Source of the DNA: Hyaloscypha bicolor E
Taxonomy: Eukaryota; Ascomycota; Leotiomycetes; Helotiales; Hyaloscyphaceae
DNA: 64,000 nucleotides
Direction: 5' to 3'
Assembly (NCBI RefSeq): GCF_002865645.1
Contig: NW_020194515.1
Coordinates: forward strand, 1,364,001 to 1,428,000
In this document: positions 19,443-31,397 of the stretch, in pieces
Numbering within the stretch: position 1 is the first letter of the stretch
Layout of the letters: each line of letters starts with the position of its first letter
The notes under the pieces: model-generated
The model's database searches: none
The model's input: only the letters and a program-made list of their open reading frames with translations
Told to the model about the DNA's origin: nothing
Translations under genes and position numbers: made by a program

Positions 19443-21486
19443 CGTTGCATCAAGTCAGACGATGGCAGGTTACGTGCAGAGAGGTGCAAGACGTATGGAT
19501 ATCGCAGCGAGTGTAACGAGACGAGCAAACCCGAGGACCTGGGTCCAACGGCTCGCAGGGAAGAGGGGCAGACAGACATATAGGATCTGCAGACTTGACT
19601 TCCGCATCAAATGTCCCTTGCCCTCCCTGTGATCACTCATCACATATTTTTAGGAGCAGAAGGGGTGAAGGATTGGCAGAACCCAGGGCTCCGGACTGAC
19701 CGAGACCGTGGATTCTGCCCTCCCCTCCCTCCCCTCCCTCCCCGGCAAGCGGAGTTGCGGGGGTTTGGACATGTCGAGGCGTGGAATGCGGATCTGAATT
19801 AGAAACAACATGTCAACATGGCCAGATGCAGCAGCGGAAGGGAGAGTTTGCCTTGGGTGTGCCCAACATCCGACCATTGTCCCCATGCCTGTTTGTCAGG
19901 ACGGCACCTCCCGACTATTCTTTACGGCCGTAACTACAGCCCCACGTTTCCTGGGGAGGAGGAGGGGGTTGTGGCTGGAAGGATAGAGTATGATGAAGCT
20001 GGACTTTGAGTGTTGACGCTCTCGTGGAAATGAGACATTGTGGAGAAATTGGGAAGAGGGACGGAGAGGGCGTGATTGGTCAAAATACGAACAGAAGGTT
20101 CGAATGTGGCTTCTGGGCGCATTGTAGGGACGGCATTGCAAGCTGTCCTGGTGGTCTGGCTCGGGAGAGGACGCCACAGTGCTGGATTGCTGGAAATATG
20201 GGTGTGGCGCCCTGGGGGAGGGGCGACAGGCTCGTTCCGACACATGGATTCACGGCGATGGTGCGTGCAGGCGGAACTTGCCAAAATACTCGGGAACGGA
20301 TGGATCATTACAGTATTGATATCGGCTCCGGATCGAGCCGGTAGAAGAACTTCAGATGGCAAGTGTTGTCGAGATCCTGCCTTATTTGAAGATTGAGAAT
20401 GTTGCGCCTTACGGTAAGAGTTGACGAAACCTTTCTGGATCCAGGAACTCAAACCTCACGAGCCAAGACGTCCTGGACACCTGTGCCGGTAGTCAATCTT
20501 GTGGAGGAACCTTCGGAGTCCGGCCCAAGCCACTCGTGAAGTCTCATGCCCCCGAGGTCAGGACGGATAAAAGGTTTCCGGTAGTTGGGTCGTCAAAGGG
20601 ATGTAAAGCCCTTGCGAATAACTGGCTTGGATTCATATCCACATAGCGAGGCTTGGGCATATCCATATGAGAGGGCTGGCACTTGCTTCTTTGCTTCACT
20701 ACGAGCTGAAAATGTCGCGCATCATGAGTGGTGTAAGAAGCAAATGGATTCGGGCCGCCTGCCGATCCACATTCTTAAACAAGTCTTTTTCGATCTGGAC
20801 CCTCGTTTCAAAGGCGATGACGCCCGTACGAAAATTGATGGTTGTATTGGCAAGAATATACTTCAGGAGTGTGTCACTCCGAGGAGATACACATCCCATG
20901 ACGAACAGGAGTGTGTACCGATATAAAACATCAGACCACTATTGAAGTTTCTTCAAGAATCCTCAGGTTCGCAGCATCAAGGCTTGGAAGTGGAAAGACC
21001 AACTTGACAGCTGCCAAGATGGCCCGAGCCGGGCCATACGTCGAAAGAGGTTAGGGAAGTTTGCTGGAGAGTTGACACCTGTCATAGGAGTTCATCCAAG
21101 CAGGCACATGTCGTGCCAGTTAACGGAAGCAACTCGACATCCGTCAGATCCACAACCACTTCGCCGACCTAGAAGCGCCGAGATAGATCTCGGACACTTG
21201 TGCCACACACTCGTTTCCGCCGACGATCCTCGCCGACTTCTCACAGCAATTGGCATTCCAATTGTCGGATGGAGGGAGAAAGAACTCAGCAATGGCGGAA
21301 CAACAGACTTTTCCTTTTTGCACCCAGCCCTCATGACGGCCTCCTGGCAAATGTCACAGCCTTACGAGATCCTTCTCGCAGCAGCCCATCAATGACACCA
21401 CGAAATACAGCTCGAAAGAACCAGCTGTGCCGTCCGCTCATCAGTAGCTTATCATCCAACAGACCGCAAACTTCTCAGCATCGAAG
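19443..21486. other. Gene-poor region
   Basis: No supported gene. A 172-aa minus ORF (19934-20452) is low-complexity and lacks domain character. A TTG-initiated plus frame (20585-20926, AENVAHHEWCKKQMDSG, VFFDLDPRFKGDD) reads somewhat like protein and may be a relic, but no partner exon or family is seen. Confidence 0.3.
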
Positions 21487-21745
21487 CGCTGGCAAGAAAC
21501 AGCAAAATGCATTCATTCCTCGGACCCATTCTCCAACTTAGCTTGAACTTTGCGCTGGACATAGAAAAGATCCTCTCCACCATTGAATGAGTCTGGGTAC
21601 AGCACGCTGGCAAGAAACAACAAAGTGTATTTACTCCTCGGACCCATTCTCTAAGTTAGCTTGAACTTCGTGCCAGACATAGAAAAGATCCTCTCCACCA
21701 TCGAACGAGTCTGGGAACGGCCCGCTCGCAAGAAACCAGCAAAGT
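21487..21745. repeat. 118-bp tandem repeat, about 2.2 copies
   Basis: The unit begins cgctggcaagaaac and contains ctcggacccattct, gcttgaact and gaaaagatcctctccacca. Copies start at 21487, 21605 and 21723, exactly 118 bp apart; the third is partial. Substitutions are scattered. The period is not a multiple of three, so the array is unlikely to be coding. Confidence 0.8.
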
Positions 21746-21909
21746 ATGCTCGTGTCCAGCCGGAACTTTGGGCACTTTGAATAGGATCGAGGATGAGTCG
21801 AGAAGGGGAACAAGAGGTGGTGTGTGTATCTCTGAAGTGACAACTGCGGACTGCTCGCACAGTCCTCTATTCGTCATCATGCTTCATCTGAACTTACAAG
21901 TCATTTCAG

Positions 21910-22000
21910 ATACAGTCACTTGTAAAATCGGTTTCGTCCTGTTTCGCCTAAAAAAAAATCCGAGCACAGACTACATCAGCTATTTTTGGCGCTGACACCG
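21910..22000 (+). repeat. Left copy of dispersed inverted repeat (pairs with 26072-26162)
   Basis: This stretch (tcacttgtaaaatcgg, cgcctaaaaaaaaa, tatttttggcgctgac) matches the reverse complement of 26072-26162 with scattered, mostly transition-type differences. The two copies face each other and enclose the HET-ankyrin gene. Confidence 0.65.
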
Positions 22001-22591
22001 TGCGTCATCCTAGGTATTGTACTGATTGGTACCTTCTTGCATATAAAGCACCTATAGTTACAGTCTTAGAACAGTAGCTCTTCCACTACTGATCTGTTAG
22101 AATGATTGGTAATCAACCCATGGCCTGCTGCGCTAACAATAACATTTGTCAGTTGGTAGTCACGTGTATCGGCACTAGTCCTCCTAATCAGTGCTAGCTT
22201 GGTTGGCGATTATTTAAGGTCCCTCAACACCATCACTCTTTGTACTTTAGACATATTAATCAGAACCACTTCTACCCTCAAATTTGGCACCTTTTAACTC
22301 AAAGTGGGACCCCTGACAGTGCAACTGTCAACATTGATTTCCAACAAGGGCCGGCCAACACCAATGGGTTGAATGTATGAGTGACATGACGCTAGACATG
22401 GAGAGTGGAATGAACTGGTCATGTTACTACTGTATAACATGTGAACAGTTGAAGCCTGTATGAATATTCTTGGCGTAGTTTCTAGAACATTCTGTGGCTG
22501 CATTCAATGGCAACATTCCATAGTATATAAACATCTCCTCCCCTAAGACCCTCTATAATAAAATATATATGATATATTTTGTAACTATGAA
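22001..22591. other. Intergenic, 3' flank of the HET-ankyrin gene
   Basis: AT-leaning and without recognisable ORF. Ends with a TATA-rich stretch (aaatatatatgatatat) just before the stop of the minus-strand gene. Confidence 0.35.
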
Positions 22592-24100
22592 TTATTGTGG
22601 TTTCTCAGCGCCTTTCTCCAGCAGCAGCTTCACCACCGCCTCGTGCCCATTCCTTGCAGCATATGATAGCGGCGTCCGGTCATAGTCCCTGTTAGTCTCA
22701 AGCACAGCGCCTTTCTCCAGCAGCAGCTTCACCACCACCTTGCGCCTTGGTACCCATGACGGCGTCCAACTACTATACCAAGATTTGGTCTCCAGCTCAG
22801 CGCCTTCCTCCAGCAGCAGCTTCACCACCGCCTCGTGCCCATTCCCTGCAGCATATGACAGCGGCGTCCGGTCATAGTCCCTGTCAGTCTCTAGCACAGC
22901 GCCTTTCTCCAGCAGCAGCTTCACCACCGCCTCGTGCCCATTCCCTGCAGCCCATGATAGCGGCGTCCGGTCATAGATCTTGTCTTCAGTCTCCAGTATA
23001 GCGCCTTTCTCCAGTAGCAGCTTCACCACCGCCTCGTGCCCATTCCTTGCAGCCCATAACAGCGGCGTCCGGTCATAGTCCCTGTCAGTCTCCAGCACAG
23101 CGCCTTTCTCCAGTAGCAGCTTCACCACCGCCTCGTGCCCATTCCTTGCAGCCCATGACAGCAGCATTTGACCGCTTACTTTCATATTGACATCGACATC
23201 GTCGCGCACTATCAGCAGCCTTACCAATACCTCATTCTCCGTATCCACTGCGGACTTAAGTACTTCGGTGGCAAGAAAATCCAAGTTTCCTAAAAACTCT
23301 GGCAACGTCCAATCGAATGAACGGTAGATAGGAGAGTTCAACTTGTTAAAGTTGAGTAAGAATAAGGTAGTATCGAAAATAACATCTTGAAGATTCTTTT
23401 TATAGTTTGCTCTCAGAAAATCAGTATCGCATGCATCTGAAGATATGCCTAGTAAGGCATAAATACTATCTCGTGGGTCAGTCGCTTCGCTTCCGCAGAA
23501 TTTGACTAGCAATGTGTAAAGATCCCGCTTTTTGGCCCACCAAGAGCTATTCCGGAGAGGACCTGGCATAATATCTAAGATAGGTTGACAGTGCGGGTCT
23601 GGGGTGATCTCTAGTAAAGATAGCGTAAGAGCGAAGATGCTTGCCGAAACAGATTTGCCACCGCAAACGATTTCGGCAACTCGCGCGTTGGCAACTTCTT
23701 GTAGAATCCAGACTCTCTTAAACCAATTTCGACGAAGGAGCGACCGTAAGCCTTCAATCAGAAGGTCTCTTTGGTCAGCGATTAAATTGTGTACCACCGC
23801 TGACCAGATATTCACCCACTGCTTGTCTGAAATTTTCTGGTCATTAGAGGCATGTTTGGTGCTCTCTTTCTCCAGTTGCTCCATATAATGCATAACATAA
23901 TCTGTATCATATGTAGCTTCGCCTAACCAGATAATTACTCGTTCAGCCTCGCTGTAAATAGATCCCATCTGCTGGACTTGCTCTCCTCGTTCTTTATTAT
24001 CATTTTGATTAATGCAAAGAGCATCAATCCAAAGAATCCGGTCTTTTTCTTGGTAACGGAGATCCCGAAGTGCAAGATATGCATTTTTGGTAACTGTCAT
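22592..24100 (-). CDS. HET-domain protein with six near-identical ankyrin repeats
   Basis: The frame runs 502 aa from the first ATG (24098-24100); it stays open 16 codons further but starts there only with TTG. Residues 1-150 carry the middle and end of a HET domain (RILWIDALCINQND, ERGEQVQQMGSIYSEAERV, IIWLGEA, RVWILQEVANA). The usual opening motif (Y-x-x-L-S-Y-x-W-G) is not seen upstream, so the gene is 5'-truncated or lacks an unrecognised first exon. Residues about 310-500 are ankyrin repeats of 33-34 aa (DRTPLSWAAGNGHEAVVKLL...), six units nearly identical in sequence; the fifth is shortened and scrambled (TPSWVPRRK) but stays in frame. HET domains act in fungal non-self recognition and can trigger cell death. 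Here the repeats would be the sensor part (inference). Confidence 0.8.
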   Translation of the reverse strand: MTVTKNAYLALRDLRYQEKDRILWIDALCINQNDNKERGEQVQQMGSIYSEAERVIIWLGEATYDTDYVMHYMEQLEKESTKHASNDQKISDKQWVNIWSAVVHNLIADQRDLLIEGLRSLLRRNWFKRVWILQEVANARVAEIVCGGKSVSASIFALTLSLLEITPDPHCQPILDIMPGPLRNSSWWAKKRDLYTLLVKFCGSEATDPRDSIYALLGISSDACDTDFLRANYKKNLQDVIFDTTLFLLNFNKLNSPIYRSFDWTLPEFLGNLDFLATEVLKSAVDTENEVLVRLLIVRDDVDVNMKVSGQMLLSWAARNGHEAVVKLLLEKGAVLETDRDYDRTPLLWAARNGHEAVVKLLLEKGAILETEDKIYDRTPLSWAAGNGHEAVVKLLLEKGAVLETDRDYDRTPLSYAAGNGHEAVVKLLLEEGAELETKSWYSSWTPSWVPRRKVVVKLLLEKGAVLETNRDYDRTPLSYAARNGHEAVVKLLLEKGAEKPQ

Positions 24101-24668
24101 TTTACTGTCTGGAATATCGCCTTTGAACCGTTCTCTCACTTCTCTCAAACCTTTTTGAGCTTACCCTTGGTGTCCTGTAGGTTCTCTAAGGCCTTTAGCC
24201 TTATTGTAGCTTGCAGTGTAACGAGTCATGTATATCAACATGCCTATGGGCCCATGAATAGGTAGAGAGAGAAATCGATCCACAGGTTTTCGACTTCAAT
24301 CTCGCTCAGTTGCGTCGGCTAATGCCGTTTCTACCCTCACCTAGCAGAGTTACTCGCCGTTCTCTAGTTCCTCGCTCGTGTGTCGGTAAGGCCTTTGCCG
24401 GGGTGAGGCGGGGTGGGTGGTCCGGCGATATTAATTAAGGAAGTTTGTGGTCTCTACTGCCTCAAAGCTTATGTTCGGTTAACCGGAACTTCCTGGACGG
24501 AAAGCGGAAGAGCTGACGAGTTTCCGCTGCTGCTGGGATAAGTCCCAGCCGAAAAACTGAGTTTGGAGGGGGGGTCGGTGGTGGTCTTATACAGTCTCCT
24601 AATACGCCGTACACTAGAACAGTGTGTACCCCATCGTTTAGGTCTGGTACACTTTATTATTAATTACC

Positions 24669-24669
<1 letters not shown>
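24101..24669. other. Upstream region of the HET-ankyrin gene
   Basis: Should contain the missing 5' end of the HET domain if it exists, but no frame here shows the L-S-Y-x-W-G motif. Otherwise no gene. Confidence 0.35.

Positions 24670-24694
<25 letters not shown>
24670..24694 (+). repeat. 25-base poly(A) tract
   Basis: A pure A run that directly borders the left end of the anomalous reversed block (24695). Confidence 0.95.
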
Positions 24695-24699
<5 letters not shown>

Positions 24700-25519
24700 A
24701 TACCCTGCAATTATATAATTTCCTAAACATTAATATTATTTCCACACTAATTTTTAGCTAAAAAATCCGCACCCGCCTACCCCCAAACCCGCCAACCGAT
24801 CACCTATGAAGATGAAACCGATGGTCCTATCGTACAAGTCAAGATGTCATAGTAGTAAAGAAAGTTACGGATGGGAGACTTGCTCAACGGTCAAGTCGTT
24901 CTAAGGTGTCGCAAATCGAATGTTATACCGAACGTTTAGTGTCGGTGTAGCCCTCCAACTGCACCGCAAAAGTCGACTCGGCGTTTGGGGCGGTCGGTTT
25001 AGACGGAGTGTTCCCACGCTTGGGAAGCTTAAGAGAGCTGAAGTTAGGGCGTAGCTACAGAGAGGTGTCTCTGGAAGAGGGAGATGCTGTTATTATCGTA
25101 GCTGAACTCGACGACTATTCATAACGTCGCTATCGCTGAGATGCTGATGACTCGAACGGCTAGTCCAGGCTGCGTAAGCAGGCGAAGGCGCGATAGTTGT
25201 CTGAAAGAGGTGCTCGGACGGTGTCTGTCTGCAGAAAGTTATGGCTCGAGAGGTAGGCAGTAGATTAATAGTCTGACTCTAATATCCGTCATCTCATCCC
25301 GTCTTCTATTCTACTCGAAACCTAAGTCGTAGCCGCTGAAGGAGCGGAAGTAGCTCGAATGGTTGTTCTAGGCCTCCCTTAAATAATCACGCGGCTCGGT
25401 CAAGTTCTTGTGGAGGCTACTGATCCAATAGATTCATAAACTGGCTATCAACGATTGGAATTAAGTGTCTCAGTCTTCGGAAAGCTAGCAATAAATACTA
25501 CAGCTGTAACAATATAGGC
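24695..25519. other. Block whose base order appears reversed without complementing
   Basis: Read as given, the block shows no gene or homology on either strand. Its complement read left to right (equivalently, the block read backwards on the other strand) does. Positions 24695-24813 complemented are identical, base for base, to 25732-25850. Positions 25312-25421 complemented encode MSFGFSIGDFLAFIEL and further residues to QFKNTSDD, a well-known start of fungal signalling/NLR-type proteins. A CTAAC branch site, a TTCACAG acceptor and an exon starting VRSLSIV follow, ending at 25519. Reversing 24695-25519 in place joins seamlessly to 25520 and lengthens the adjoining palindrome. I read this as a data artefact or deliberate alteration, not biology. 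Confidence 0.85.
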
Positions 25520-25731
25520 TTCAATATCCTAATAACTATATATTTAATTTAGTCTTGTGGTGCGGCTAGAATCGCCTGTTAATGTCGAATTTTTTGATTT
25601 TTGGTATGCGGCCGGCTTACTAAAAATTATTGGGTGCGGCCGCATACCAAAAATCAAAAAATTCGACATTAACAGGCGATTCTAGCCGCACCACAAGACT
25701 AAATTAAATATATAGTTATTAGGATATTGAA
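25520..25731. repeat. Perfect 95-bp inverted repeat with 22-bp spacer
   Basis: Arms 25520-25614 and 25637-25731 are exact reverse complements by my base-by-base reading; the spacer is 25615-25636. If the block to the left is reversed, each arm grows by 119 bp to 214 bp and both outer ends become TA followed by gaagtatcc, as in a foldback or TA-targeting MITE. Confidence 0.92.
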
Positions 25732-26071
25732 AATACTATGGGACGTTAATATATTAAAGGATTTGTAATTATAATAAAGGTGTGATTAAAAATCGATTTT
25801 TTAGGCGTGGGCGGATGGGGGTTTGGGCGGTTGGCTAGTGGATACTTCTAAGTGATAAAAAGAATTTGCGCTGCCAACCAGGTAATATTTAATCTATTAG
25901 TGTGGAATACTGTAGGTCGATGGTGCCTGGGAGGAAGCCGATTTCGCTAGTGACTATATCTGATTTTGGTGTGAAATTGATGATATTGATAGTGGCTAGT
26001 CAGCAAGTATTCCCTTCCAAAATCGATTGTAGAGACCAGGTACTGTAGAGTATACGAGATCACAAACCGAA
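25732..26071. other. AT-leaning non-coding DNA with repeat fragments
   Basis: 25732-25850 is the normally oriented copy of the sequence hidden in the reversed block. Around 25932 a gaagccgatttcgctagtgac fragment resembles the right dispersed repeat at 26135-26160, so partial copies of the same repeat family are present. No ORF. Confidence 0.5.
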
Positions 26072-26162
26072 TGGCGTCAGCACCAAAAATGGCCGGTGTG
26101 GTTTGTGCTTAGAATTTTTTTAGGCAAAAGGGGACGAAGCCGATTTTGCAAGTGACAGTATT
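26072..26162 (-). repeat. Right copy of dispersed inverted repeat (pairs with 21910-22000)
   Basis: The reverse complement reads tcacttgcaaaatcggcttcg...cctaaaaaaa...catttttggtgctgacgcc, matching 21910-22000. Together they bracket about 4.25 kb. Confidence 0.65.
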
Positions 26163-26549
26163 GCTCACCAACTTTCTCACAGACTCCCATAGCCGTCCGT
26201 AAGTTGCCAGCGAACGGCGCCCACGAAGGGAGGCAGGAGCGGGCCGACGCTCAAACTACGGGAAGAAGTAGTCTCGTTTTATGCTCTTGCCAAAGCTGGA
26301 AGCCCTTACTTCTCCCATCGTCCCTTCTCGCCACCTGAAAGACCGAAGTTAGAACGACGAGCCATATTCAGACTTTGCTCACCTTGGTCATTTCGTTTCT
26401 TGCGGCATCGAACGTGGTCCGAAGCCCATGACCGAAAGGGGGCTTCTGGAGCGACCTGGACGCACACTCTTTCCCTGCTTGGATCGTTCACCCACTCCGC
26501 AAACCCAAAAGGCAAAAAAGGTTTGAGAGACCCAATGAAATCGCCACGT

Positions 26550-26815
26550 GCCAGCAAACGATGCAAACAGAAGTATGAAAGGATCTAGGAGCAGGCCTAT
26601 ACCTCTCCTTTGGGCTCCTAACCTAGTCCACAAACTCAAATTCAACGAGGAACTCTGCTCGAGGTCTCTCTCCACAAATTAACAATTGCCATGCAGGCAG
26701 AAGCATGAAGCTACCCAGGAACGCACACCACCTCCTTGGGCCCTTGATCTAGCCCACGAACTCAAAACACCCCCTGAGAAGTCAGCTCAGGGTCTCCACG
26801 CACTCGCCGCAGCCA
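26550..26815. repeat. Two diverged ~130-bp tandem units
   Basis: Units near 26560-26688 and 26690-26810 share an order of short blocks: atgca..cagaag.atgaa, then cctttgggc.cc or ccttgggccc, then cta.cccac.aactcaaa and ggtctc. Further weak echoes of the atgcag.c.gaag block occur at 27121 and 27170. Diverged too far for a simple satellite; perhaps an old duplicated coding segment. Confidence 0.45.
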
Positions 26816-27722
26816 TGAAGGCGGATCTGGCAGAAGTAAGCAGGGAACTCTGCAGCGGCCCGATGCTCGATGGACAGGACGAGAATACCGAAATCTCTTC
26901 TCGAAGTCTTCAGCCTACCCTTGTCCCTTGACTTCCATGTCTCCTCGCCTTTAGCGAATGCAAAAAAAAAAAAGCCTTCCAACGCGGTTCGATATCTCTC
27001 CGGGAGATGTCCAATACTGGCTGCAACGGAAGGAAGAAAGAGAGCGAACGCCTCGAAACTTTTGAGAGGCTCAAAAACCAATCCACTGGAGCTGCTAACC
27101 AGTGGTAGAAACCCACTTACTATGCAGACGGAAGAAAGGAGACAATCATCTCCCCATCGAAGAGCTTCATGCAGACAGAAGGAGAGAAGACCATGGACTC
27201 TGGATCGGCCCGACGGTCAAGCCTTTCGAACCCAAACCATTCCACTCGAAGTCTCTAGGAAGCCCCAATTTCACGGCAGACATTGCAGACAGCAACACTC
27301 ATTTGAAAGAAAGGACGAACGCAAGCACGAGCTCAACGACGGACTCGTTTCAAAAGGTACTCGCCGTTTTCATCACGGACTCCTCCAGCAAACCATCTGA
27401 TCGTCAATGAGCGAGATCAACGACTCAGGCACGGCCCGGCTGCCCAATCCGAAAATAGCTCGCTTCAGCTTCTCACCCACTTACTTGCTCACTGCATCGC
27501 AGGCTGCATTGTACCTGCATCCGCGCTGCACTCACAGACACCGCACCCGGTCCCGGTCCCCATTTACCAAACAACTCCCCTCCATCCCCAAAGCCAAAAA
27601 TCCCGCACCGTCCCTCAGCCCATTCCACGCGTTCAATTCATCAATTGACCGTCGTGTTCCAAGCGAGTCTGTTCGTATCTCAAAAAAGAAAGGACCTCTT
27701 TTACTGCGTTCCTGCAGGTCCT
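26816..27722. other. Gene-poor region
   Basis: Several overlapping ORFs up to 176 aa (26870-27400) without domain resemblance and with frames that interrupt each other. No call. Confidence 0.3.
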
Positions 27723-27807
27723 GCAGATACGGTAGTTAAGCAGATACGGTACTTATGCAGATACGGTAGTTGTGCAGATACGGGAGTTATGCAGATACGG
27801 TAGTTAT
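27723..27807 (+). repeat. 17-bp minisatellite, five copies
   Basis: The unit gcagatacggtagttat is repeated five times without gaps, with one or two substitutions in the inner copies. There are no spacers, so it is not a CRISPR array. Confidence 0.95.
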
Positions 27808-30800
27808 GAGGTGGGGGCTGGGCAAACGTGGAAAATTTCCGGCTGGGGCACCAGGGGGGTCGATGTGTTTGACGTAATCTGATCTGATCCTTCTCAGCCC
27901 TGATGTCTGTCATTTCAGATGGAAGAGGCTCGGTGCATGAGCAGGATTCTTTTGCGTCGAACGAGTTTCTTCTTCTGGAAAGGAAATCTCGGAGAAGGTG
28001 AGTGAATGGTTTGTTCGCTGGACGCATTTGGATGGTGGTGAGCGCCGACTTCATGCATACGACGATCGAGGTGTCCAGACTACAGAATTAGCAGCTTTGA
28101 CCCGATGTTTTGTTGTTTTGTAAACAAGTCCATCCCATCATATCTCAAAATCGAAATCAAAATCAAAATCAAAAATCAATTGTGCAAATCGCCGCATCTC
28201 GATCCTTCTTCTCGCCCACCTCCAATACTGTATCGATCATCGCGGGGGGCTTCCCTTACTTACCTGTCACACTGCCCAATACTTTCCACGTCTCCTCCCT
28301 TCTTCCCTCCCTTCCCACGTTCACGAGCATTGTGCCGACAACCTGCCAACCCCCATTCATCGTCCGTGTAAATCGCGCGTCCTGGTTTGATCTCTGAGCC
28401 TCAGAATTGTCTGGAAGATTGGAAAAAAGCTGCGTCATCTCAGCCCTTCCCTCCCCGTTAGTAAATTTTTTTTTGGCTTTCCTTTCTGTTCCCAGCGGTC
28501 TTCCTTGCGCGCACACGCCTGCACAGGAAATGAGAGAGAGGGGGCCCACTTGCCTGCCGCCGGCTCGACAAGGCATCCCTCACTCTCGCTCGTGATGGGC
28601 GATGCGATGTCAGAAAGAGAGTTTTCCGCCCTCCACTCCAACGTCCTCGTCCTCATCCTCGGCTCCGTAACCCGCCTCAACGGTTTCGTCCAGTCATCCT
28701 TCCTCCCTTCCTTACGAGCCAGCCAGCCAGCCAGCCAGCGCGAAACGTTAGAAAAGGTAGGTAATTTAGGTAGCCAATGCTTTCTCATACTATCATTATT
28801 CCAGATCTCCAAACTTCGGCATTATTGGTGCTGCCCCCGGAGAAACGGGGATTATTTTCTTCTCGAATCGCAGCGTGCGCCCAGATCTCAAACCGCGCCG
28901 CCCCGATTTTTTCGAAAGATTGAAAAGGCGGGTTTCAGAGGACAGGGCTGCGATCACCGCGCCAATCGCATGCCCCTACCCCGTCCCCTCCCCTCCCCAG
29001 CGATTGCGCAAGGATAGACAGCGATCGCGTGAAGGCGTGCCTGTGCCTTGCCTGCCCTGCCTTGCCTGCTCTGCCCTGCTAGCACAGACCGGGATGGGCC
29101 CAACATCATTTTCTCCTGGGGGGGGGGGGGGGGGGGGGGGCTTGCGCAAGTACAGTAGTGGATGTTTAACTTTAGGGGACCCTTAGGAGATGCATACCTT
29201 TGTAAAAATTATCACGATTATATAAAGAATCAAGTCCCGGCGTAATTATATAACAATCAAAAGTCCGCCAAATATTGTATCGCGTCAAGCAACTGTTTAA
29301 AAGAGCGTACCTATAAATCGTTGCATGATTCGTCACGTGGAGGGGAGTAAATTAATGGGGGGGATTAGGTTTTGATTGTTTGGAGCAGGAAACACGAAAC
29401 CGCAGTAGGTAAATGGAGCAAGCCTCAGGTTCCTGATTGGCTATAGGTCACATGATGCCTCATATGCACCCAAGCCGGCGGAGTGGATTATTTTATTTTA
29501 CGATATTAAACGTATTCAAGCCCCCCTAAAATTTATATAATTTCAGCCCCATCCATCCCCTACTTTTGGGTGGGCGAGAAGGGGGGCTGCCCCATCTTCC
29601 CAACAAGGTGTCAAAACCCTGGGAATGGAAACTGGCACGCAAAAGGGCAAGGAGGAGCGCTGCTGGAGAGGAATAATCGGCCAATATTCCTCAACGCGCT
29701 GCTGTGCTACCGTGAATTACGAAGTACATGGCAGGGAATGCCCCGAGAGCCCAACACAGACAGCTCCACACAGCGCAGCAGTGCCAGCACAGCTCAGCGT
29801 CGAGAACGGGACTGAGCAGATCAAAACAAAGGCGAACAGACCGTTCAAATATTGCCGTGCCCCACTACCCGGAACGATTATTTTTCAGACAGTTACTTAT
29901 ATGAACATAAGGTTCGTATGGTCGCCGGGGCGCCTGTCTGGCTCTTGACCCTTCGTTTCGAACCCTCTTCGTGCCCAGCCTTCTTCGGTGCTTCTTGATT
30001 CAGCTCTACCTACGCACTATATATATTTCCGCCCTCTCGCCGCCGATAGGTTAAGACGAACCAGCAGTCACGAACGCGACCTGTCGAGCCCACGCCAGAG
30101 AACATTGAATTCCTCGGGCCCAATCCCCAGCCCGCAGCGCGCAGCTTTCGTACCAGTGGCACGGCTACAGAACAATCCTCGCGACTGGCTAAAAGACCCC
30201 CCCCGCCCCGCCCTACGCTCGGGAATCTTGCCAATTGGCACGCCGCGGGTTGCTTTTTAATCTTACCAAGTAGGATTATACACCTTCCGGCGCCAGGATC
30301 CAAGGAAGTATCAGACCTCCAGGTCCCCCCCGTCTGAGCGAAAGTTTGCTTGCTTGGAAGTTGGAAGTTGGAAGGAAGTGCCGGGGTTTGCATCGTCGGC
30401 AGCGGGTGCGCAGTTCGGACACGCGCGACGCGTTCGTTGAGCCTCGACCGGGAAGTAAGAAAATAAGCAGAAAACTTATTACACGCCAGATCCCCTCGTC
30501 ACCAGCATCCTCCAGGCCTCCTCCTTCCCCTCGCGTGTCCATCATCGCGCATCCAGCATCCAGCACCCGGCATCGACTTCGAGCTGCGACATTCGGGTTT
30601 CGTTCGCTTCACGTCGAATTGCAGCTCCTTGCTGACCGCCAGGTTGTGTCTGGGGTCGTTGCCGAATCATCACGCTGCCGACTCGGCTGGCAGTTTTATA
30701 TAAACAAATCTACAGCCCACTACACGGCCCACGAGGCAGAACCCCGCGGGTCTGGAAAACCCGCACCATATCATCCGGCAACACGGCAAACCATTCGTTG

Positions 30801-31397
30801 CATTCACCCTATCTATTATCGATCGCCATCATCGTCGCTGCGGCCGATTTTCAGACCTGTTGCAAACCGTCAGTTTCCAATCACTGCCCCGCGGTGTAGC
30901 TCTGTGTCCTGTACGTATCCGGGGATTGATGTAGGCGGCTTCAAGCTGCGGCGTCTCATCAGCTGCGACCAGCCCAACAGCGGCTCCCGGTGAACTCTAG
31001 CCGGTTCCCGGAACGAAACCGATTCAGCAAACTGACTGGAATCGGTGAGGTTGTGCTAAGTGGGATGAACAGACTAAGACATCGACGTACAAGCAAGCAG
31101 CACTGGCACGGCTTGTAAGACCTCGAAAACTTGGGGAAGAGTGAAGGGTACTCGCTGGACGGATCGACGCTGAGTCTTAGAGAGACAGCCGTCAAGCCAT
31201 CAATTCTCGTGGGGCTGTGGTCGGGGCTTGAAGACATTGTTTGCTTTTCGTCACTCGTTTGAACTCCCCATCGACGCCTTTCCGAACTCCAATTGCGCCA
31301 AAACTTTTATATACCTGTCGCCCTTCTCGGATTCTGTCCTACGCGAACGCGTCATACTATCTCATTATCCCTAACACCAATTCATCATTGCGTCGCG
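27808..31397. other. Long non-coding stretch upstream of the membrane-protein gene
   Basis: No convincing gene. It includes an uninterrupted run of 23 G at 29118-29140 and several AT-rich parts (29190-29560). A 215-aa plus ORF (30346-30993) is compositionally biased and probably leader or promoter DNA of the gene starting at 31398. Confidence 0.4.

Follow-up and report, generated by a model that had tools for sequence, protein, structure and literature searches.

Two blocks in mirror order beside a run of 25 A's split a HET-domain gene in a Hyaloscypha bicolor assembly and probably stem from gap filling

Results

A HET-domain gene, a run of 25 A's and a palindromic element

We analyzed 64,000 nucleotides (nt) of the Hyaloscypha bicolor E genome, termed the window herein, in whose numbering positions are given. 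The region of interest contains part of a predicted HET-domain gene, a run of A's and a palindromic element, and the two blocks flanking the A's appear to be written in mirror order, i.e., reversed and not complemented. The features are as follows.

22592 to 24106, minus strand: normally oriented part of a HET-domain and ankyrin-repeat gene, left of the gap (Pfam HET profile, ankyrin repeats, matching proteins)
24107 to 24669, no strand assigned: apparent mirrored block 2, middle of the fungal N-terminal region and first part of the HET domain (23 proteins when reversed, relative L031, protein P0019, reversal score)
24670 to 24694, plus strand: run of exactly 25 A's, likely a placeholder for the unfilled remainder of a gap (strand bias of such runs)
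24695 to 25519, no strand assigned: apparent mirrored block 1, 825 nt, reversed and not complemented (palindrome restoration, homology, protein matches)
24695 to 24813, no strand assigned: outer part of the left palindrome arm, mirrored (equals 25732-25850 as a parallel complement, 119/119)
25312 to 25421, no strand assigned: predicted exon 1 (MSFGFSIGDFLAFIELTNKIRREFISAPSQFKNTSD plus 2 nt) in the complement read left to right (18 homologues)
25422 to 25469, no strand assigned: predicted intron of 48 nt in the mirrored reading, CT..AG with a noncanonical donor (contains CTAAC)
25470 to 25519, no strand assigned: predicted exon 2 (..VRSLSIVIYDVDIVIS), truncated at the gap (matched 3' of exon 1 in L030, L031 and L032)
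25520 to 25850, plus strand: correct remainder of the 450-bp palindrome (95-nt left arm, 22-nt loop, 214-nt right arm)

Block 1 restores a palindrome when it is reversed

The first-pass annotation had described 24695-25519 as a block written backwards, on the ground that the complement of its first 119 nt, read left to right, equals 25732-25850. Recomputation gave this parallel complement at 119 of 119 positions, compared with 0/119 for the direct, 20/119 for the mirror and 27/119 for the reverse-complement orientation, and the runner-up parallel complement in an exact-match search across the 64-kb window was 16 nt long. Window and genome assembly are identical over 21001-31000, so block 1 belongs to the assembly and not to the window alone.

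As given, the perfect palindrome has arms at 25520-25614 and 25637-25731 around a loop of 22 nt. If 24695-25519 is reversed where it stands and left uncomplemented, the arms grow from 95 to 214 nt, still free of mismatches, and the element reaches 450 bp, so that the block does join the palindrome arm at 25520, as had been proposed. The element belongs to a repeat family within the same assembly (82,041,658 bases in 76 contigs), which resembles MITE-like palindromic transposable elements. Two copies in this genome, L010 and L011, are likewise 450 bp long. Of the 15 further loci fetched, 11 carry a copy that aligns with the restored element from end to end (449 to 482 bp), the other 4 copies being partial or broken. 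Copy L010, when reversed, matched 24695-24813 at 98% and no other place in the genome. Between its arms of 214 nt, the restored window copy (25401-25850 after reversal) has 0 mismatches, compared with 1 in the best of 14 others. When the reversed element was used to look for mirrored copies genome-wide, the window alone matched, and a second repeat family gave no match in reversed form (forward, 404 candidates, of which 40 were scored); such empty results are weak evidence.

The first reading also held that the remaining ~700 nt make sense only in reverse, and most of the evidence agrees. As given, 24700-25400 matches itself and nothing else in the genome, and the reversed 706 nt match C27:84671-84777 (93% identity over 107 nt, E = 9.9e-39). 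Against relatives within the genome, the reversed block reached an E value of 2.2e-18 and the block as given 2.3e-4, the latter a weak match in a low-complexity stretch. Markov models of orders 2 to 5 favored the reversed reading of the 706 nt by 7 to 17 bits, and 61 of 61 control stretches of the window scored below zero, although for orders 4 and 5 the controls lay within the training set. In tblastn comparisons with 72 database proteins, which had been assembled by queries that included the mirrored reading, 24814-25519 matched none as given and 18 when reversed. Reversal without complementing, the check recommended at the outset, brings protein matches that the sequence as given lacks. The normally oriented stretch 22600-24106, used as a control, matched 54 of the 72 as given and 0 when reversed.

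A second block in mirror order lies left of the A's

The interval 24695-25519 proved correct for one block, and a second, at about 24107-24669, had been overlooked; the 25 A's between them had been read as normal sequence. In a k-mer scan of the window for reversed sequence, the top segment, 24124-25402, extended to the left beyond the poly(A) run, and 24160-24668 scored as reversed at word lengths 3 to 6. The score is inflated in AT-rich repeats, and three such loci outscored the window segment; we therefore regard the scan as a lead and not as proof.

Homology points the same way. The left edge of block 2, 24107, was set by the reading frame at the junction in the homologues; homology to the related locus L031 begins at 24151. 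Read backwards, block 2 apparently encodes the beginning that the HET gene at 22592-24106 lacks. The open reading frame 22592-24160 encodes ankyrin repeats and matches the HET profile (PF06985) from profile position 25 to 146 with 101.6 bits (curated cutoff, 22.5), and the normal part lacks the first 24 profile positions. With shortened queries, the match began at profile position 6 (91.3 bits) when the mirrored reading was included and at position 24 (83.2 bits) without it. A protein joined from the mirrored reading and the normal part, with X at the two changes of reading frame in block 2, is matched by database protein P0019 at 72% over 99% of the query, and the alignment is gapless at the mirrored/normal junction; this query was built from the mirrored reading and hence favors it, which makes the raw DNA the fairer test. 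In raw DNA, block 2 matched 0/72 proteins as given and 23/72 reversed, with the same 72 proteins, and against relatives within the genome it gave an E value of 9.1e-5 reversed and of 0.002 as given, in a low-complexity stretch. Named relatives include proteins of Hyaloscypha and Leptodontidium; no relative was found among viral contigs.

Weak low-complexity matches aside, sequence comparison shows that both blocks match relatives only when reversed, each alone in its place. The blocks have to be reversed separately: turning round block 1 by itself completes the palindrome, and doing the same with block 2 by itself brings it in frame with the HET gene. One reversal spanning 24107-25519 was considered and discarded, as it leaves the palindrome unrestored, whereas two separate reversals in place restore both the palindrome and the gene.

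The predicted start of the gene in block 1

A fungal N terminus and a continuing exon had been read from reversed block 1, and homologues of both were found. Exon 1 (about 37 residues) has 18 database homologues, the best with 92% identity over 68% of the query, exon 2 follows it downstream in L030, L031 and L032, and the two exons joined gave six matches in the same genome. A Pfam search of short pieces gave nothing convincing. The 48-nt intron contains CTAAC, which is presumably a branch-like site. Its donor is CT and not GT, so the gene may be damaged or misread at this point. The end of exon 1, GA|CTAGGTT, has no GT donor either at 25421/25422 or in the C27 paralogue (L026, near position 1600); the change may therefore be old and common to both paralogues and not a read error.

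The run of 25 A's is likely a gap placeholder

According to the first-pass annotation, the reversed block also joins the poly(A) tract at 24694. That junction exists in the letters, but it is likely no real join, because the 25 A's are likely an unfilled gap. L031 is colinear with the restored gene over both exons and the WEPEDI region; in it, exon 2 ends at 1715 and the region in common with block 2 begins at 1869, so that, judged from this one relative, about 110 nt of the gene would be missing at the run.

Among A runs of exact length, those of 25 A's occur 31 times on the forward and once on the reverse strand of the 82-Mb assembly (two-sided binomial P = 1.5e-8), and those of 24 A's 5 times forward and twice reverse. 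Between these two run lengths, which were the ones counted, the strand ratios do not differ significantly (Fisher P = 0.077, with only seven 24-A runs), and the totals, 32 and 7, stand apart. Placement on one strand (31 versus 1) is what would be expected of a placeholder left by a gap filler. Scaffold gaps normally carry N's. We also considered the poly(A) as a retrotransposon tail and rejected this: 24161-24694 matches only itself in the genome, and the adjoining words of 9 to 10 nt have no copy in the window. Elsewhere in the window, 29118-29140 is a run of 23 G's, an unusual length that could mark another weak spot of the assembly.

Mirrored blocks adjoin gap-like runs elsewhere in the assembly

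We fetched 14 of the 31 other 25-A sites, all on the forward strand. By homology, 3 are mirrored (L038, L040 and L045), 2 are normal where testable, and 9 allow no verdict. Along L011, L038 is normal up to 896, mirrored over 895-1700, then has the 25 A's, is mirrored again over 1730-2138 and normal thereafter; at the A's it lacks about 160 nt of L011. Its two extensions are 73% and 81% identical to L011 and the sequences beyond them 88% and 86%, although identity can vary for other reasons. At L040 the block right of the 25-A run is mirrored. The same 1.36 kb stands on either side of that run (L040 70-1425 and 2141-3500 in C73:437501-441000; 98.3% identity), possibly an overlap that was never merged.

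The left block of L045 is mirrored: reversed and searched together with a piece of L042, it matched 40 of 40 scored copies (435 candidates) at 79 to 82%. In the order given, its matches were the block itself, three long copies at 75 to 77% and 18 shorter, weak stretches. This genome-wide mirrored search covered, among the 25-A sites, L045 and the piece of L042. The three long as-given copies turned out to be mirrored themselves, near 27 A's (L049), 28 A's (L050) and 332 N's (L051). Mirrored blocks are therefore found in six further places, next to three 25-A runs, two A runs of greater length and a single run of N's. The N run (L051 1368-1699, in C29:1375901-1378300) is mirrored on its left by homology and on its right by k-mer score only; it is perhaps a gap that was left as N and not turned to A, although N's can also stand for withheld sequence.

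Not every such run has mirrored flanks: both flanks of L043 and the right flank of L046 are normal. At its 25-A run, L043 (C46:2085201-2087600) lacks about 600 nt of L010, the repeat that it matches. L036 and L042 appeared mirrored by k-mer score only, apart from a single weak match of reversed L036 (E = 2.5e-7); given the false positives of the k-mer scan in AT-rich repeats, no site was counted on k-mers alone, and neither of these was.

Discussion

Probable origin of the mirrored blocks

An assembly or file-handling error had been named as the likely cause, and an assembly error is indeed the best explanation, with mirrored blocks adjoining gap-like runs elsewhere in the assembly. We think it likely, with good confidence, that the two reversed blocks flanking the 25 A's are gap extensions written backwards by a PBJelly-like gap filler working with long reads and that the A's stand in for the gap that remained. 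Aberrant sequence beside a gap, as such an artifact would produce, is present in the window and at L038, L040, L045, L049, L050 and L051. The two changes of reading frame in block 2, like the lower identity of the L038 extensions, are suggestive of the higher error rate expected in extended sequence. In the restored sequence, the first unique 96-mer starts at 25520, exactly at the block edge, and K values of 31, 64, 77, 99, 127, 150 and 200 do not give this position. The right contig thus likely begins at position 25520.

A short-read assembler with K = 96, the ALLPATHS-LG default, would have broken the right contig at 25520, with the first K-mer that touches the palindrome loop. A long-read patcher would then have extended both contig ends and, failing to join them, left a short gap. 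Some extensions would have been inserted with half a reverse complement, i.e., complemented but left unreversed, or reversed but left uncomplemented where the contig was flipped later, and the gap letters would subsequently have been turned to A's. A long exact palindrome is not always enough to break a contig, because exact arms of at least 176 nt occur in 7 of the 14 other copies measured (at least 96 nt in 10 of 14), none of which shows a break or an N. Mirrored and normal flanks both occur at 25-A sites, so the fault must strike some extensions only; it may depend on which strand a read or contig represents, in which case mirrored sequence at every site is no necessary feature. We count it against the gap-filler reading that the placeholders are A's and not N's and that L051 kept its N's.

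That the blocks were reversed by another program, by manual finishing or by a file-handling step, and not by a patcher like PBJelly, strikes us as rather unlikely. ALLPATHS-LG and PBJelly are suggested solely by the values 96 and 25 and by the pipeline that JGI has published, which leaves some room for a different tool; however, the mirrored blocks adjoin gap-like runs and extend from both sides without joining, and the lower identity of the L038 blocks to their relative than of their flanks, as expected of unpolished long-read extensions, is suggestive. Deliberate editing, which had been raised from the start, or a test planted in the window, would account well for clean in-place reversals with exact edges, such as an editor would produce. 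It is nevertheless very unlikely, because in six other places mirrored blocks, of varied lengths, adjoin runs of A or N; moreover, the same letters stand in the assembly, and block 2 shifts reading frame twice.

Least probable is a true rearrangement of the genome, by inversion or by copying in parallel orientation, for which the letters as given speak and nothing beyond them; we consider its chance almost negligible. A genomic inversion yields a reverse complement and not a mirror, and the reverse complement agrees at 27 of 119 positions versus 119 of 119 for the parallel complement; to our knowledge, no polymerase copies in parallel. The mirrored blocks, furthermore, adjoin 25-A runs that sit 31 to 1 on one strand. 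On these grounds we rejected a biological origin: the feature is neither an inversion nor a new kind of repeat, nor is it evidence of parallel DNA copying.

Consequences for related assemblies

There is in our judgment an even chance that the proposed gap-filling error represents an undocumented class, in which partly filled gaps of hybrid assemblies, from short and long reads, carry extensions in mirror order and N's turned into A's. A search of open-licence papers found no description of such a reversed-extension bug. If the class is real, the error would lie silent in many public fungal genomes from the same pipeline, with truncated genes and false "orphan" sequence. Backwards sequence defies alignment and annotation, so genes at such gaps would look truncated and the blocks novel. 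A simple flag is the presence of A runs exactly 25 long and strongly biased to one strand, for which further assemblies made with the same pipeline could be screened quickly.

Comparison with known systems

Mycorrhizal fungi have been assembled at JGI with ALLPATHS-LG, hybrids being patched with PBJelly (PMC7550596), and another JGI set was patched with PBJelly and then treated with Quiver (PMC12923307). As described in the cited part of its publication, PBJelly defines a gap as 25 or more N's, extends flanks into gaps that it cannot close and reports "overfilled" gaps (PMC3504050); the window resembles this in contig ends extended from both sides without joining and in the number 25. It differs in its reversed, uncomplemented extensions, in A's for N's and in the 25-nt residue, which the same portion of that publication does not mention (PMC3504050). 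The ends of ALLPATHS-LG unipaths, built with default options at K = 96 according to the passages cited, recall the edge at 25520, the first unique 96-mer inside the palindrome (PMC5905499), and the difference lies in the placeholder, which here consists of A's and not N's. With palindromic transposable elements, the element in the window shares long and nearly perfect arms, TAG..CTA ends in most copies and a high number of copies; its part here is only to expose the error, since its arms ought to match.
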